Source: an uncultured Desulfobacterium sp.
Lineage (GTDB): Bacteria > Desulfobacterota > DSM-4660 > Desulfatiglandales > Desulfatiglandaceae
Assembly (NCBI GenBank): GCA_900258555.1
Contig: LT984856.1
Location: 410,836 to 460,538, forward strand
Length of the DNA stretch: 49,703 nucleotides
Direction: 5' to 3'
Part shown: in pieces, positions 4,746-49,659 of the stretch
How positions within the stretch are numbered: position 1 is the stretch's first letter
Layout: each line of letters begins with the position of its first letter
Made by a program: the position numbers and the translations under genes
Notes under the pieces: generated by a model
Databases searched by the model: none
Told to the model about the DNA's origin: nothing
The model's input: only the letters and a program-made list of their open reading frames with translations

Positions 4746-4964
4746 TTATAACTTCATTATCCTGTCCTGAATCGTCTTGAAGGGTTTGGGCGCGTGGTTG
4801 ATAAATTCGTTATACCCATTCAAGAAGTCAAGATATCTGTCAAGATCAACTTTGCCATCTTTCAGCAATGGGTTATGCCTGTTTGCAACCAGACGGCGCA
4901 TATCCTCTCTGATTGTTTCAGATTTTGAGATCTCCATCCGTTCCTGCTTTTCATTTTCCCGCAT
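4746..4964 (-). CDS. small partner protein of the nucleotidyltransferase
   Basis: This 72-aa charged, helical protein has no domain I can name. Conserved-looking features are MRRLVANRHNPLLKDG and a C-terminal HAPKPFKTI segment. Its ATG overlaps the stop codon of the nucleotidyltransferase gene (TGATG), implying translational coupling. The pair resembles small two-gene modules in which a nucleotidyltransferase is paired with a short protein, as in toxin-antitoxin systems of the AbiE/MNT type. Which one would be toxic cannot be told from the sequence. Confidence 0.7.
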   Translation of the reverse strand: MRENEKQERMEISKSETIREDMRRLVANRHNPLLKDGKVDLDRYLDFLNGYNEFINHAPKPFKTIQDRIMKL

Positions 4965-5727: not shown

Positions 5728-7176
5728 TTATAAAATCTCAACAATACGATAACCATTACCTACCGGCTCGACTTTCACTTTTCCGGCAGTAGCCCTTTTC
5801 TTTTTGCCAAAAAGGCTATTTTTGAGTGGCTCTGGAACGATCTCTTTTCCTTTTACAGAAGCCTTTTTGCCTTCAGATGTAGCAGTTATGATTCCATCGC
5901 CAGGAGACCATGTTAAATATACGTTTTCCCAAATAACAAAATCCGGAGGTGGTGGAACAGAATCAATTACCTCGAATTCACGGGTGTTAACTCTTGGCGC
6001 ATTATCACTTAAAGAAAGTTTTTTGATCAACCTGTTCTCTTTGTCGCGCCATTCCTTTTCAGCCTTATCAAAATCCTGTTCCATTGCAGGAGAAATTTCA
6101 CATAATTCAGCCCATCCAAATGGCTTACAGTTTGTGACTGTTTGCGGCTTTGATTGTTCGCTGGCAAGCCACAGGGTTGTGGCGTGATCTTTAAAGGACG
6201 ATCCCTTTCCTTTTCCGCCCATAATTTTGATATCGCGATGTCCTTCGATTGTTACGGATTCCGCACCGGAATGCCTGCCTATTCGTATAGGGATACTATC
6301 TTTTCCAAAAAAAGCATTGCCTGAGGAAATACCGGCGTTTTTCAATTCCCGTTGTTCCCTTTTGTGTTCTCTGGAATAGAATGTTCTGGAGCTTTCCAGG
6401 AGGCCATCAAGTTTTATCGGTTTGTTAATCACCCATGCGGACAAAGGCTCATCCACTACGATATTCCCCATAAATACGTTTCCAGGTAAGATTGTTTCCA
6501 GTACCTGAAATGGCCCCTTTGCCTCATTCCCGGATTTTTTTTTGATATTCACAGCGTAAAGGATTTTGGTTTGAACGGCCCCTACGGGTGTGAAATCAGA
6601 CACCTTAATCAGCCGGAAGGGGTCGGTTTCGATTTTCGATTTTTCATAATTAAGAAGCGTAGCTTCAAGTCCTTTTGATGCTTGTTTATCCGCTTTGTCT
6701 CTAAGGTGTACTTTTGTCTTTGCCGCCAAACCGTTTAAATAGGCTGTCCGAAGAGATCCCTTGAGAGAAGAGCCAGGAATATAAGGGCGGTCATAGGCTG
6801 AAAGAAATGATGTCCGTGAAATGGCAAAATTGTTTAATTCCTGCTGGATCTTTCTTTTGTCATTGGCAGGAATGGAAAGTGTTTTATTATAATGCTCCAC
6901 GAATCCAGAACAAAGTTGGACCTCTTTTCCCGAAGCCGGTCTTCTTTTTAAAAATTTGTATATCTCAAGAATGGATTCGACCGATCCCCGTGAGCATATT
7001 TCCGAGAATCGCTTTTTATCACTATCATTCATTTGCGAAATAAGGCTTATGGGATCAAAGGCCGTAAGTTCATTTTTGTTTTCATCAACCACAAACCCCA
7101 TTGGTTCATAGACTTCGTCGCAACCGATGTGGATGGGGGAAAGGGTTTTCAGAAAACAATTAAAGACTTGTTTCAT
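5728..7176 (-). CDS. csm5: type III-A CRISPR RAMP protein Csm5
   Basis: Csm5 caps the 3' end of crRNA in the Csm effector complex. This 482-aa protein begins with a RAMP strand (FNCFLKTLSPIHIGCDEVYEPMGF) and has the glycine-rich RAMP loop YIPGSSLKGSLRTA near residues 134-147. Both are typical of Csm5 as the last RAMP gene of a csm operon. It is longer than most Csm5 proteins (about 350-400 aa), the extra length being mainly a lysine-rich C-terminal part. The ATG has GGAGGTAAGAG directly upstream and overlaps the end of csm4 by 17 bases. Confidence 0.9.
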   Translation of the reverse strand: MKQVFNCFLKTLSPIHIGCDEVYEPMGFVVDENKNELTAFDPISLISQMNDSDKKRFSEICSRGSVESILEIYKFLKRRPASGKEVQLCSGFVEHYNKTLSIPANDKRKIQQELNNFAISRTSFLSAYDRPYIPGSSLKGSLRTAYLNGLAAKTKVHLRDKADKQASKGLEATLLNYEKSKIETDPFRLIKVSDFTPVGAVQTKILYAVNIKKKSGNEAKGPFQVLETILPGNVFMGNIVVDEPLSAWVINKPIKLDGLLESSRTFYSREHKREQRELKNAGISSGNAFFGKDSIPIRIGRHSGAESVTIEGHRDIKIMGGKGKGSSFKDHATTLWLASEQSKPQTVTNCKPFGWAELCEISPAMEQDFDKAEKEWRDKENRLIKKLSLSDNAPRVNTREFEVIDSVPPPPDFVIWENVYLTWSPGDGIITATSEGKKASVKGKEIVPEPLKNSLFGKKKRATAGKVKVEPVGNGYRIVEIL

Positions 7177-11972: not shown

Positions 11973-12001
11973 AATTCCATCGTCCTCCTTATCGCCATAT
12001 T

Positions 12002-20497: not shown

Positions 20498-21823
20498 ATG
20501 GCCGGAAAAAAATACGGGATAGTGGACACGTGGAAATACAGGAGACCGGAACGAAGGCTTTTTTTGCTGACCTCCCTGGCAATAGCGGTCGGATATGCCC
20601 TGGTGACTGTGCGAAAGGGCGGCATTTCTTCATTTAATCTCCATGATGCAATGCCGCTTGCAGTCTATCTTTGCGGTATCCTGACCGTGCACCTTGTGCT
20701 GATCCTGTTTAAATTCAGGGGCGACCCTTTGCTGCTCAGCGCGGTCTTATTCCTCTGCGGGATCGGCATGCTCGCCCGGTTTCGACTTGGCGCGACAGAA
20801 CAGATCGTTATCCGGAATCTATCCTCGCTGGCCTTACCCCTGGGCCTTGCCCTCATGCTCCTTGTAATCCTGCTGTTCAGAAAGGGCAGATATCGTATGC
20901 TTGAGTCCCTGGCAGTTCCCTGTGTAATTTCAGCCATTGCCCTTATGGCCGCTATCATTTTATGGGGAGAGCGCTATCGCGGGGCGCTGTTTTTTACGGG
21001 GTACACCAATCCCTCAGAGCTTGTAAAAATATTGTTGATCATCTTTCTGTCCGGTTTTTTAGTCCGCTGGCGAAAGGAGCTTCAGGACACCTCTGTCGGC
21101 CTTCCTCGGTTGACCTCCAGGGCGGTCATCCTCCTTTTGATATCCTGGGGGCTCCCCATGGCGCTCCTGCTGTTCCAGCGGGACCTCGGACTGATAGTAA
21201 TGCTCAATGCCGTGCTGATTGTCCTGATATTTATGGCAACAGGAAGGCCGTCGTATCTTGTGGTCGGCCTGCTCTTCGGCGTTGTCTTCTGCATAGCCGC
21301 CTATGCCTTCACAGCCCATGGTCAAGCGAGATTTGTAACATGGCTTAATCCCTTTTCCGATGCAACAGGTAAGGGCTGGCAGATCCTTCAGGCCCAGTCT
21401 GCAATGTATTCAGGAGGGCTTTGGGGAGTGGGCCTTGGGGCAGGTGCCCCGGAGTATATACCCATAGCATCTTCTGACCTGGTATACGCTGTTATAGGAG
21501 AGGAGATCGGATACACAGGGTGCGGGGTTGTGGTTGCTTTTTTTGTTGCATTGTTTTTTCGCGGCTACCGGATAGCCTCACAGATCGGTCATCCTTTCGG
21601 CAGACTGCTGGCGGCAGGCATTGTGTCTACCTTGACGTTTCAGACCCTGTTGAATATCGGGGGCGTTACAAAGGCCCTGCCCCTTACAGGCACGACTCTG
21701 CCGTTTATCAGCCACGGCGGAAGCAGCCTGATGACCACATTTTTGAGTGTGGGACTGTTAATGGCCCTTTCAGAAAAAGAACCTGCACCTGACAGGGGGA
21801 AAACAGGAAAGGCAAAAACATAA
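20498..21823 (+). CDS. SEDS-family peptidoglycan polymerase (FtsW/RodA/SpoVE-like)
   Basis: A multipass membrane glycosyltransferase that polymerises lipid II together with the class B PBP encoded just upstream. The 441-aa protein has about ten hydrophobic helices and SEDS signatures: NPSELVKILLIIFLSGFL, FQRDLG, then QAQSAMYSGGLWGVGLG and the C-terminal PFISHGGSSLMTTFLSVGLL. Gene pairing alone does not say whether it serves elongation or division. The pairing without mreBCD or the mur/ftsZ cluster suggests an extra or dedicated pair. Confidence 0.92.
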   Translation: MAGKKYGIVDTWKYRRPERRLFLLTSLAIAVGYALVTVRKGGISSFNLHDAMPLAVYLCGILTVHLVLILFKFRGDPLLLSAVLFLCGIGMLARFRLGATEQIVIRNLSSLALPLGLALMLLVILLFRKGRYRMLESLAVPCVISAIALMAAIILWGERYRGALFFTGYTNPSELVKILLIIFLSGFLVRWRKELQDTSVGLPRLTSRAVILLLISWGLPMALLLFQRDLGLIVMLNAVLIVLIFMATGRPSYLVVGLLFGVVFCIAAYAFTAHGQARFVTWLNPFSDATGKGWQILQAQSAMYSGGLWGVGLGAGAPEYIPIASSDLVYAVIGEEIGYTGCGVVVAFFVALFFRGYRIASQIGHPFGRLLAAGIVSTLTFQTLLNIGGVTKALPLTGTTLPFISHGGSSLMTTFLSVGLLMALSEKEPAPDRGKTGKAKT

Positions 21824-21824
21824 T

Positions 21825-21920
21825 TATTAATGCTTAATGTTTAATTTTTAATTTTTAATGCTTAATGTTTAATGCTTAATTTTTAATGCTTAATTTTTAA
21901 TGTTTAATGTTTAATTGTGA
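21825..21920. repeat. AT-rich tandem octamer tract (TTAATGCT/TTAATGTT/TTAATTTT)
   Basis: About 95 bp consist of degenerate octamers of the form TTAATNTT in head-to-tail order, directly after the SEDS stop codon. It is low-complexity DNA without coding potential and could stop transcription or be a slippage-prone spacer. Confidence 0.8.
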
Positions 21921-21955
21921 ATTTATAAGGCCCTGACCCGCAACCCGTAACCCGA

Positions 21956-22143
21956 TGTCATTAACTTAACGATTCATAACAGGCGAAAAAACGCGGATTT
22001 GCAGTCGTGAAGGAAATATTTGAACTGCAGAATATCGAACAAGGAATGTCGAATTTGGAAGTAATGAATCGCTTTTTTTATATCCTTACTTCTACATTCG
22101 AAATTCCTTGTTCGATATTGGATATTCTCTTAAGTTAATGACA
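21956..22143. repeat. nested inverted-repeat element between the SEDS gene and recQ
   Basis: The outer arms TGTCATTAACTTAA (21956-21969) and its exact complement (22130-22143) enclose a second inverted pair of 33-bp arms (22031-22063 and 22087-22119; about 30/33 matches). The inner arms contain ATCGAACAAGGAAT. The element fits a small non-autonomous, MITE-like repeat. Short CCCGTAA-type heptamers flank it at 21936-21953 and 22147-22166. Confidence 0.7.
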
Positions 22144-24464: not shown

Positions 24465-25157
24465 CTATTGTTGTATGGTCTTCCCATACATCGCCAGTTC
24501 TTCAAGCCCTGCATGGTCGAGCAGTCTGATGGTCCGGTCTTTTACCTCGATTAAACCCTGACTGGTCATCTTCGCAAATATCCTGGACATTGTCTCCGGT
24601 ATAGTACCCAGGAGGCTTGCAAGCTGACCCTTTGAGATTTCCAGCGTCACAGAATCATCTGATCCCTGTTCTCCTGCCAGATAAATAAGATATCCTGCAA
24701 GACGGGCGGGGACTTCCTTTAAAGAAAGGTTTTCTACTTGAACCGTAAACTGACGCAGCCTCATGGACAGAACCGCCAGCATGTTCAATGCAAGGGTGGG
24801 GTTTTTTGCTATCAGATCTGCTATTGAGGATCTTGGGAAAAAGAGAAGATGGCTTTTGGCAATCGCCTCGGCATTGGCAGGAAACGATTGACCGCTGAAG
24901 ACCGGCACTTCCCCAAATGGCTCACCCGGACCGATGAAATGTAAGACCTGTTCTTTTCCTTCAGATGAAATCTTGAATATCTTTACAAGGCCCGTAACAA
25001 CAAGGTAAAACCCGTCGCCTTTATCACCCTCATAAAATATGAAATCTGATTTCTTATAGTATTTGTTAACAGAGATCCGCTCAATTTCTTTTAATTGGTT
25101 ATCAGGTAGACCATTAAAAAGTGGTATGCCGGAGATTATTTTCAAGATGTCATTCAT
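24465..25157 (-). CDS. Crp/Fnr-family transcription regulator
   Basis: This 230-aa regulator has an N-terminal cyclic-nucleotide-binding-type beta-barrel (FIFYEGDKGDGFYLVVTGLVKIF, then GEPFGEVPVFSG). A long dimerisation helix follows, then a C-terminal Crp-type winged helix (KGQLASLLGTIPETMSRIFAKM, LIEVKDRTIRLLD). No FNR-type N-terminal cysteine cluster is present, so it is not an oxygen-sensing FNR of the E. coli kind; its ligand is unknown. ATG 25157 is chosen, with GTG 25178 as an alternative. A long inverted repeat lies in its upstream region, which could insulate it from bioD. Confidence 0.88.
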   Translation of the reverse strand: MNDILKIISGIPLFNGLPDNQLKEIERISVNKYYKKSDFIFYEGDKGDGFYLVVTGLVKIFKISSEGKEQVLHFIGPGEPFGEVPVFSGQSFPANAEAIAKSHLLFFPRSSIADLIAKNPTLALNMLAVLSMRLRQFTVQVENLSLKEVPARLAGYLIYLAGEQGSDDSVTLEISKGQLASLLGTIPETMSRIFAKMTSQGLIEVKDRTIRLLDHAGLEELAMYGKTIQQ

Positions 25158-25186
25158 TTCATCAACCGCTAAAAACACCCTATGTG

Positions 25187-25473
25187 AATATTCGAAACAT
25201 TTTAGGGGGGTTAAAAAGGCTTTCAGGCTGTGAGGCCTGTTTTTGATGGCGCATATTTTTATGTCATTACATGCAACGGCACCATAAGCCCGAAATTTTG
25301 GCCGAACAGCCCCAGAGGATGGAGCCCGCTTGAGACTTGGCCCTATGTGCCTGTTCGGCCATTATTCAGGGTAACGGGGGCGTGGCAGAAGCTCCAAAGA
25401 ATATTATGCGCAATCAAAAACAGGCCTCACAGCCTGAAAGCCTTTTTAACCCCCCTAAAATGTTTCGAATATT
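25187..25473. repeat. 287-bp element with perfect 61-bp inverted repeats
   Basis: The arms 25187-25247 and 25413-25473 are exact reverse complements over 61 bp. Similarity continues inward for several more bases with one mismatch. The 165-bp middle contains a further perfect 10-bp inverted pair, GGCCGAACAG (25300-25309) and CTGTTCGGCC (25351-25360). The right arm includes the last codons and stop of bioD; the left arm repeats those codons in the opposite orientation. Each arm also contains a CAGGC-GCCTG stem followed by TTTTT. It is either a MITE-like insertion or an inverted duplication of the bioD tail. Confidence 0.9.
25413..25440 (-). terminator. Rho-independent terminator after bioD
   Basis: Read on the minus strand after the bioD stop, CAGGC-TGTGAG-GCCTG is followed by TTTTT. 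This would end the biotin transcript. The same structure exists on the plus strand in the left repeat arm (about 25223-25245). Confidence 0.6.
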
Positions 25474-26165
25474 TTATTAATTATATCATAATATTTTTCT
25501 TGAGGCATTGAAAAATTCTCGATTTTACCGATCACTCCCGCAACCTGAATCCCGGAAAATATCTTTATTGATTCCATATTTTCACTAATCATATCAGGAG
25601 GTGTAGGCCTGTCACCCGGGTCTAAAAATATTATCCCCGTTGGCTCAATCCCCCTTTCTCTCAGGACTTTTATGGTAAGGAGGGTATGATTGATGGTGCC
25701 CAGACCTGCGCGGGCTGCGATAATTGGTCTTGATTCTGTGCGTTCTATCAGATCTATCATCAGCGTCCTCTGGTCTACGGGCACAAACAGCCCTCCTGCT
25801 CCCTCAAGGATGATGGGGCTGAAGTCTTTGGCCCTTGCCGCCAATGCCTGAATTACCTGTTCTGTTTTTATTTCCCTTTCCCTTCCTTCATCACGGGCCG
25901 CAAAATAAGGTGCCTTTGGGTTCTTAAAACAGTAAAGGACCGACTGAGCCGGATCTTTTCCCTTCAACTGCGCAATATTACTGTATATGAATCTCGCGTC
26001 GCTGTCTGTATCATAAGGATCATTGCACCCGGTCTGGAATGGTTTCATGTAGAATGGGGAAAGACCTTTGTAATAAAAATACTGCATGATGAGGAGAGAC
26101 AAGACCGTTTTACCCACTCCCGTATCCGTACCTGTAATAAAAAACCTGTCTGACTGATTATTCAA
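25455..26165 (-). CDS. bioD: dethiobiotin synthetase BioD
   Basis: BioD closes the ureido ring: 7,8-diaminopelargonate plus CO2 and ATP gives dethiobiotin. The 236-aa protein has the family N-terminus FFITGTDTGVGKTVLS, whose GTDTGVGKT is the P-loop, and the conserved LEGAGGLFVPV near residues 113-123. It starts at a TTG (26165) that overlaps the bioF stop by eight bases. It is the last gene of the biotin operon. Its final codons lie within the long inverted repeat. Confidence 0.95.
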   Translation of the reverse strand: MNNQSDRFFITGTDTGVGKTVLSLLIMQYFYYKGLSPFYMKPFQTGCNDPYDTDSDARFIYSNIAQLKGKDPAQSVLYCFKNPKAPYFAARDEGREREIKTEQVIQALAARAKDFSPIILEGAGGLFVPVDQRTLMIDLIERTESRPIIAARAGLGTINHTLLTIKVLRERGIEPTGIIFLDPGDRPTPPDMISENMESIKIFSGIQVAGVIGKIENFSMPQEKYYDIINKIFETF

Positions 26166-43256: not shown

Positions 43257-43465
43257 ACCTTATGATAATCGACTATTTCCACGTCAAAGGCATCGTTGTT
43301 TCTCCAAATGAAGCAAATTCTCCATTGTTCGTTGATTCGAATGGAATGCTGTCCAGTTCGATCATCTTTGAGTTTTTCAATCCGGTTCGCCGGCGGGACT
43401 CGCAAGTCTTTAATAATAGAAATAAGAAATGGGGTCTGCCTTTGACTCTTATCGATTTTCATCAA
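43253..43465 (-). pseudogene. truncated HigB-type toxin copy
   Basis: From about residue 20 on, this 70-aa frame (DLRVPPANRIEKLKDDRTGQ to VEIVDYHK) repeats the C-terminal 50 residues of the intact HigB at 43824-44111, with few changes. The N-terminal part is unrelated sequence derived from a palindromic repeat. The nucleotide copies (about 43257-43413 and 43830-43986) are direct repeats 573 bp apart with high identity. The stop overlaps the radical SAM start codon (ATGA). It is not expected to be active. Confidence 0.75.
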
Positions 43466-43823: not shown

Positions 43824-44111
43824 TTACCCCTTATGATAATCGACTATTTCAACGTCAAAGGCATCGTTATTTCTCCAAATGAAGCAAATCCTCCATTGTT
43901 CATTGATTCGAATGGAATGCTGTCCAATTCGATCACCTTTGAGTTTTTCAAGCCGGTTCGCCGGCGGGACTCGCAAATCATTAATGCTTCTTGAACGATT
44001 GAGCATTCGCAGTTTTCTTAAGGCTATTCTTTGCAACTCATCCGGTAAGTTCCGAGACCGTTCCCGCTTAAATATTTTTTCGGCTTCCTTATCTTTAAAT
44101 GCTCTTATCAT
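43824..44111 (-). CDS. higB: HigB-family toxin (RelE superfamily mRNA interferase)
   Basis: A 95-aa toxin with the HigB signature: IRAFKDKEAEKIFKRERSRNLPDELQRIALRKLRML, then PPANRLEKLKGDRIGQHSIRINEQWRICFIW with the conserved RINEQWR. By family it cleaves mRNA on the ribosome. It is complete and precedes its antitoxin. A partial copy of its 3' half lies after the antitoxin gene. Confidence 0.92.
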   Translation of the reverse strand: MIRAFKDKEAEKIFKRERSRNLPDELQRIALRKLRMLNRSRSINDLRVPPANRLEKLKGDRIGQHSIRINEQWRICFIWRNNDAFDVEIVDYHKG

Positions 44112-49496: not shown

Positions 49497-49618
49497 CGGG
49501 AACAAAAAAACCGGGGTAAGAGCTACTCATTTGACAAACCGACTGTATTCTCGATTAATTTCAGAAACCGCATCAGGTTTACATATATAATGAGCACCAC
49601 CGAATTATATTTTTTGCC

Positions 49619-49659
49619 GCATCGCACATTTGTGTGGGTGCCCCCAATATGTTGTGGTC
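49619..49659 (-). repeat. 41-bp repeat, right copy (inverted relative to 51-91)
   Basis: Reverse complement of the repeat at 51-91 with one mismatch (G for T at the 19th base). The flanking DNA at 49497-49618 and 49660-49703 shows no gene. Confidence 0.85.

Follow-up and report, generated by a model that had tools for sequence, protein, structure and literature searches.

In the 49,703-nucleotide stretch of DNA analysed here (the window), bioD is followed on the same strand by the gene of a Crp/Fnr-type regulator. At the junction between them, at 25194-25466, lies a short, non-coding element devoid of a transposase gene. The sole ORF of at least 80 aa that runs through it on the + strand (25230-25511, 93 aa) exits into bioD antisense. 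The features of the locus are as follows:

24465-25178, - strand: Crp/Fnr-type regulator gene, downstream of bioD (Pfam cNMP_binding and HTH_Crp_2)
25186-25193, no strand: target duplication on the crp side, GAATATTC, palindromic, 7/8 equal to the other copy
25194-25466, no strand: MITE of the second end type, 273 bp, tip GAAACATTTTAGG; boundaries set by the tip and the 8-bp duplication, further based on arm homology to L152-L154 and on the multicopy core
25194-25247, + strand: left terminal inverted repeat, 54 nt, 54/54 perfect
25224-25239, + strand: mirror copy of the terminator-like stem, from a consensus scan only
25248-25412, no strand: element core, common to sister copies, 73-87% identical to the other cores matched
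25300-25360, no strand: inner hairpin, stem GGCCGAACAG / CTGTTCGGCC
25413-25466, - strand: right terminal inverted repeat, 54 nt, 54/54 perfect
25421-25436, - strand: terminator-like stem and TTTTT, located 3' of the bioD stop in the element arm, from a consensus scan only
25455-26165, - strand: bioD, 236 aa (Pfam AAA_26, 2.6e-38)
25467-25474, no strand: target duplication on the bioD side, GAATATTT

The inverted arms extend over 25187-25260 and 25400-25473 (74 nt, 96% complementary, 139 nt spacing), and the single-strand fold of this region reached -105.9 kcal/mol (z = -18.4), with 0 of 200 shuffles equally good. The perfect 61-nt inverted repeats described in the first-pass annotation were recovered as the mismatch-free pairing of 25187-25247 with 25413-25473, and so was the further inverted pair reported inside them (25300-25309 with 25351-25360, within a 30-nt pair). 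The 61-nt repeat is made up of two parts, a true terminal repeat of 54 nt and 7 nt contributed by a palindromic target duplication. Comparison of GAATATTC with GAATATTT gave 7/8 equal bases at offset 8, and no other offset from 4 to 12 exceeded 5. Since GAATATTC equals its own reverse complement, seven of its bases extend the pairing from 54 to 61 nt. The Crp/Fnr-type gene starts just outside the left arm, and its homologues align from about position 25160. The 9-mer CCCTATGTG is present only twice in the window, in the crp-side flank (25178-25186, its last base overlapping the target duplication) and in the element core (25341-25349); we left this pair as a coincidence.

Other repeats were noted elsewhere in the window. 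The inverted repeat GACCACAACATATTGGGG...GCATCGCACATTTGTG is found close to both window ends (51-98 and 49612-49659, 48 nt, 94%) and appears again in L095 as a 98% pair (4869-4909 and 6258-6298), which gives it the appearance of the termini of a further repeat family. Two 37-nt inverted arms (89%), separated by 15 nt, are located between two ORFs at 22031-22119, seven 14-nt head-to-tail units of the TAATTTTTAATGCT kind occupy 21807-21945, and a 157-nt direct repeat, its copies 571 nt apart and 94% alike, spans 43258-43414 and 43829-43985.

Genome-wide searches with the 287-bp query revealed 11 additional sites in the source genome, G000 (13 rows minus the self match and the self reverse complement), and 14 matches in a genome of the same genus, G001, while no match was found in the other 39 of the 41 genomes searched. 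The plasmid collection, searched with the element, gave no match either. Intact sister copies measured 262-286 bp and had the ends GTAACTTCTCA..., and their 8-bp duplications were equal at 8/8 bases in L006, L008 and L013 and at 7/8 in L002 and L007. Weaker duplications were seen in L003 and L010 (6/8) and in L005 (5/8), and with the same automatic boundary L004, L009 and L014 lacked a clean duplication. The family is a MITE with terminal inverted repeats, target-site duplication and several dispersed copies, in agreement with the earlier suggestion of a multicopy MITE family. Arms just as perfect also occur in sister copies (46/46 in L005 and 45/45 in L013), so the accompanying suggestion that perfect identity by itself points to a recent event or to gene conversion is not supported. 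Arm mismatches within copies amounted to 20/352 against 9/64 in the duplications (one-sided Fisher p = 0.022). Homogenisation of the arms is not claimed, since this statistic is weak and L006 and L008 contradict it, with perfect duplications and 9 and 5 arm mismatches, respectively. A regulatory RNA was considered as well and rejected: the one Rfam match up to E = 1 was to a miRNA model, scoring 19.5 against an 80-bit cut-off.

The outer arms of the window copy are unlike those of nearly all its sisters. A half copy, L011, which adjoins related core, shares the arm type of the window copy, with an anchored score of 32 against a null maximum of 19 in 3000, and a search with L011 retrieved more loci with the tip GTAACAT[CT][CT]TA...TGTTTGAAA..AGGCGTTTC. 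When aligned from the tip inward, the window arm scored 35, 35 and 33 against L152, L153 and L154 (null maximum 19 of 3000), compared with 2, 13 and 4 against the commoner arms of L013, L003 and L005. Because the match to L152-L154 lies far above chance, the window arm represents a second type of element end. The window tip reads GAAAC versus GTAAC in the family, and the search found no full second copy with the window end type. In a tree of 12 cores, the window core grouped with all other G000 copies but L010 (support 100/99), and copies with the commoner ends fell on both sides of the G000 branch, in a topology that has a midpoint root only and is not resolved inside. The simplest reading would be that both ends were exchanged in the lineage of the window copy. 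L152 also contains, at its positions 1501-1551 (from G000:C1:1129255), a perfect mini element of 51 bp, GTAACATTTTAGGTG...CACCTAAGATGTTAC, whose flanks agree at 6/8 bases at offset 8 and which possibly consists of two nearly adjoining tips.

The element contains the last three codons of bioD and its stop. Its tip is in frame with the gene and reads GAA ACA TTT TAG (Glu-Thr-Phe-stop), and the present BioD has 236 aa and ends in NKIFETF*. When the element and one duplication copy were removed in silico, a BioD of 234 aa ending in NKIFT* was obtained. The empty site reconstructed in this way would carry a bioD ending in NKIFT* followed by GGGTGTTTTTAGCGG, and GAAACATTTTAGGGGGGTTAAAAAGG at the bioD end would be element-borne and not native. 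The sequence 3' of bioD in G001, the one same-genus genome compared, differs from that of the window. The bioD stop and the terminator-like stem that the first-pass annotation had assigned to the right arm are located there (TAG at 25455-25457, stem at 25421-25436), and the hairpin of the element is predicted to terminate transcription after bioD. With the stop in the element tip and a terminator-like hairpin in the arm, the proposal that the MITE supplies both to a gene is supported for bioD. The idea that the arms copied the end of bioD, on the other hand, found no support: the arms are the own ends of the element and bioD now stops within one of them. As the arm is element sequence, bioD was not copied but borrowed the end of the element.

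As a whole, we give a probability of about 0.93 to the following reading. A 273-bp MITE would have inserted into the last bioD codons, duplicating 8 bp (GAATATTC), and the palindromic nature of this duplication would account for the lengthened terminal repeat. The tip would have replaced the native bioD end (Thr-stop) by Glu-Thr-Phe-stop, with the terminator-like hairpin of the element arm after the new stop, and mobilisation would have occurred in trans, probably by an IS66-type transposase. The locus would then be a clear example of a metabolic (biotin) gene whose end was rewritten by a small mobile element, with only two residues added to the protein.

Our initial hypothesis was that fold-back template switching (quasipalindrome correction) had copied the bioD end, with its stop and terminator, beyond an older element. 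The usual family arms are indeed absent at the window copy, the outermost nucleotides of the arms are the native KIF codons of bioD, common to the homologues L028, L029 and L031, and the bioD end of L031 resembles the window arm beyond these codons (p about 3e-4; one of four homologues). However, element tips at other loci are a far better match to the arm, and both arm and element have family-typical lengths. Moreover, the native codons correspond to a target duplication of exactly 8 bp adjoining the tip, whose palindromic sequence explains their presence in both arms as well as the apparent copying of bioD. The second tip type and the 8-bp duplication led us to discard fold-back copying as highly improbable. 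A fold-back chimera generated during assembly can also yield perfect inverted repeats, but the expected 8-bp duplication is found on both flanks and sister copies elsewhere are built alike, which leaves such an artefact with a negligible probability.

Regarding the mobiliser of the MITE, G000 carries an IS66 transposase gene (PF03050, 2.3e-34). The resident IS66 element is bounded by GTAACAGTTTAG and flanked by an 8/8 duplication, and it conforms to the GTAA start of IS66 ends. The MITE family tips begin with GTAAC, as in IS66, the window tip itself with GAAAC; the rarer tip GTAACATTTTAG (L152) is equal to the resident IS66 end at 11/12 bases and the window tip GAAACATTTTAG at 10/12. The 8-bp duplication is common to the family and the resident IS66, and a table in PMC3281130 gives 8 bp for IS66 elements. 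The GTAA-type ends, the 8-bp duplications and the 11/12 shared terminal bases suggest that the family is probably mobilised by an IS66-type transposase. Another transposase family that also makes 8-bp duplications would better fit the commoner tip GTAACTTCTCAA, which shares little with the resident IS66 beyond GTAAC, and the copy-rich G001, a genome 83% complete in which the search revealed no IS66 transposase. We consider this alternative rather unlikely, given the near identity of the rarer tip to the resident end and their same duplication length. As for an autonomous partner with the commoner ends, the extra G000 arm matches L085, L086 and L088 were isolated arms; the ORF lists of L085 and L086 contained no recognisable transposase, and L088 had no listed ORFs.

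Stop codons were frequently found close to the element ends. The question arose from the data, and the window copy (d = +12) was left out of the analysis because it had prompted it. Of 57 tips, 50 were used, each with at least 250 nt of flank. The seven dropped were chance matches away from element ends (L003 +1894 and -966, L004 +2829 and -603, L007 +1985, L010 +1562 and L183 +1168); in one case an ORF pointed at the tip (d = -100). Four of the 31 G001 stretches (L156, L180, L181 and L182) had no tip under the filter, and some weaker G001 arm matches (C318, C49, C86 and C321) were left out. The longest neighbouring ORF read toward the element at 23 of the 50 tips, with stop-to-element distances of -200, -171, -149, -80, -44, -31, -30, -28, -19, -12, -11, -8, -4, -4, -3, -3, -2, -2, 1, 4, 4, 15 and 56. 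For the null, insertion was simulated at 12,000 positions drawn at random from 134 kb, of which 2,015 were classed as tolerable and 910 had an ORF toward the element. Compared with this background, which mixes both genomes, uses ORFs in place of annotated genes and models selection against disruptive insertions by a 45-nt rule only, stops lay within 15 nt of the element in 13/23 cases versus 17% simulated (p = 2e-5) and within 5 nt in 9/23 versus 11.9% (p = 8e-4). Among stops before the element, 6/18 were within 5 nt versus 3.7% simulated (p = 3e-5). All 13 ORFs with a stop within 15 nt had a Pfam match. The eight flanking bases of the element tips showed no strong motif. Outside the element, T was common at -15 and -14 (25 and 27 of 48 flanks; L002-L018 and L155-L185), which may reflect a weak preference in target choice immediately beyond the duplication.

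A landing preference for stop codons, which would make the element a portable gene end, combined with a single core with two end types, swapped simultaneously at either end of the window copy, is a tentative and, in our opinion, doubtful proposal. Insertion would either duplicate the stop region or contribute a stop from the element, with a strong hairpin after it, and insertions behind genes could thereby be harmless or useful. If the bias reflected targeting and not only selection, the family would be a rare DNA transposon favouring gene ends in general; attTn7, in contrast, is a single fixed site.

In our literature search, we recognised neither this MITE family nor any MITE whose insertions cluster at stop codons. 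The RUP, Correia/NEMIS and ERIC elements are associated with other transposase families. They are described as short, non-autonomous hairpin elements, mostly intergenic and sometimes fused to reading frames (PMC2229807), and the window family resembles them in all these respects; the clustering on stop codons differs in that it is not described for them in the portions of PMC2229807 consulted. Template-switch hairpins can create perfect inverted repeats in one step (PMC8794818), a process that is not needed for the window, where the arms are element ends and their extension is a target duplication. Convergent arrangements are over-represented around IS66 and other families (PMC9208149). In comparison with IS66-type insertion sequences, the MITE family lacks coding capacity, its interior is unrelated to the resident IS66 and its commoner tip agrees with that element in little more than GTAAC, whereas the GTAAC ends and the 8-bp duplication are features that both have in common and the rarer tip matches the resident end at 11/12 bases.
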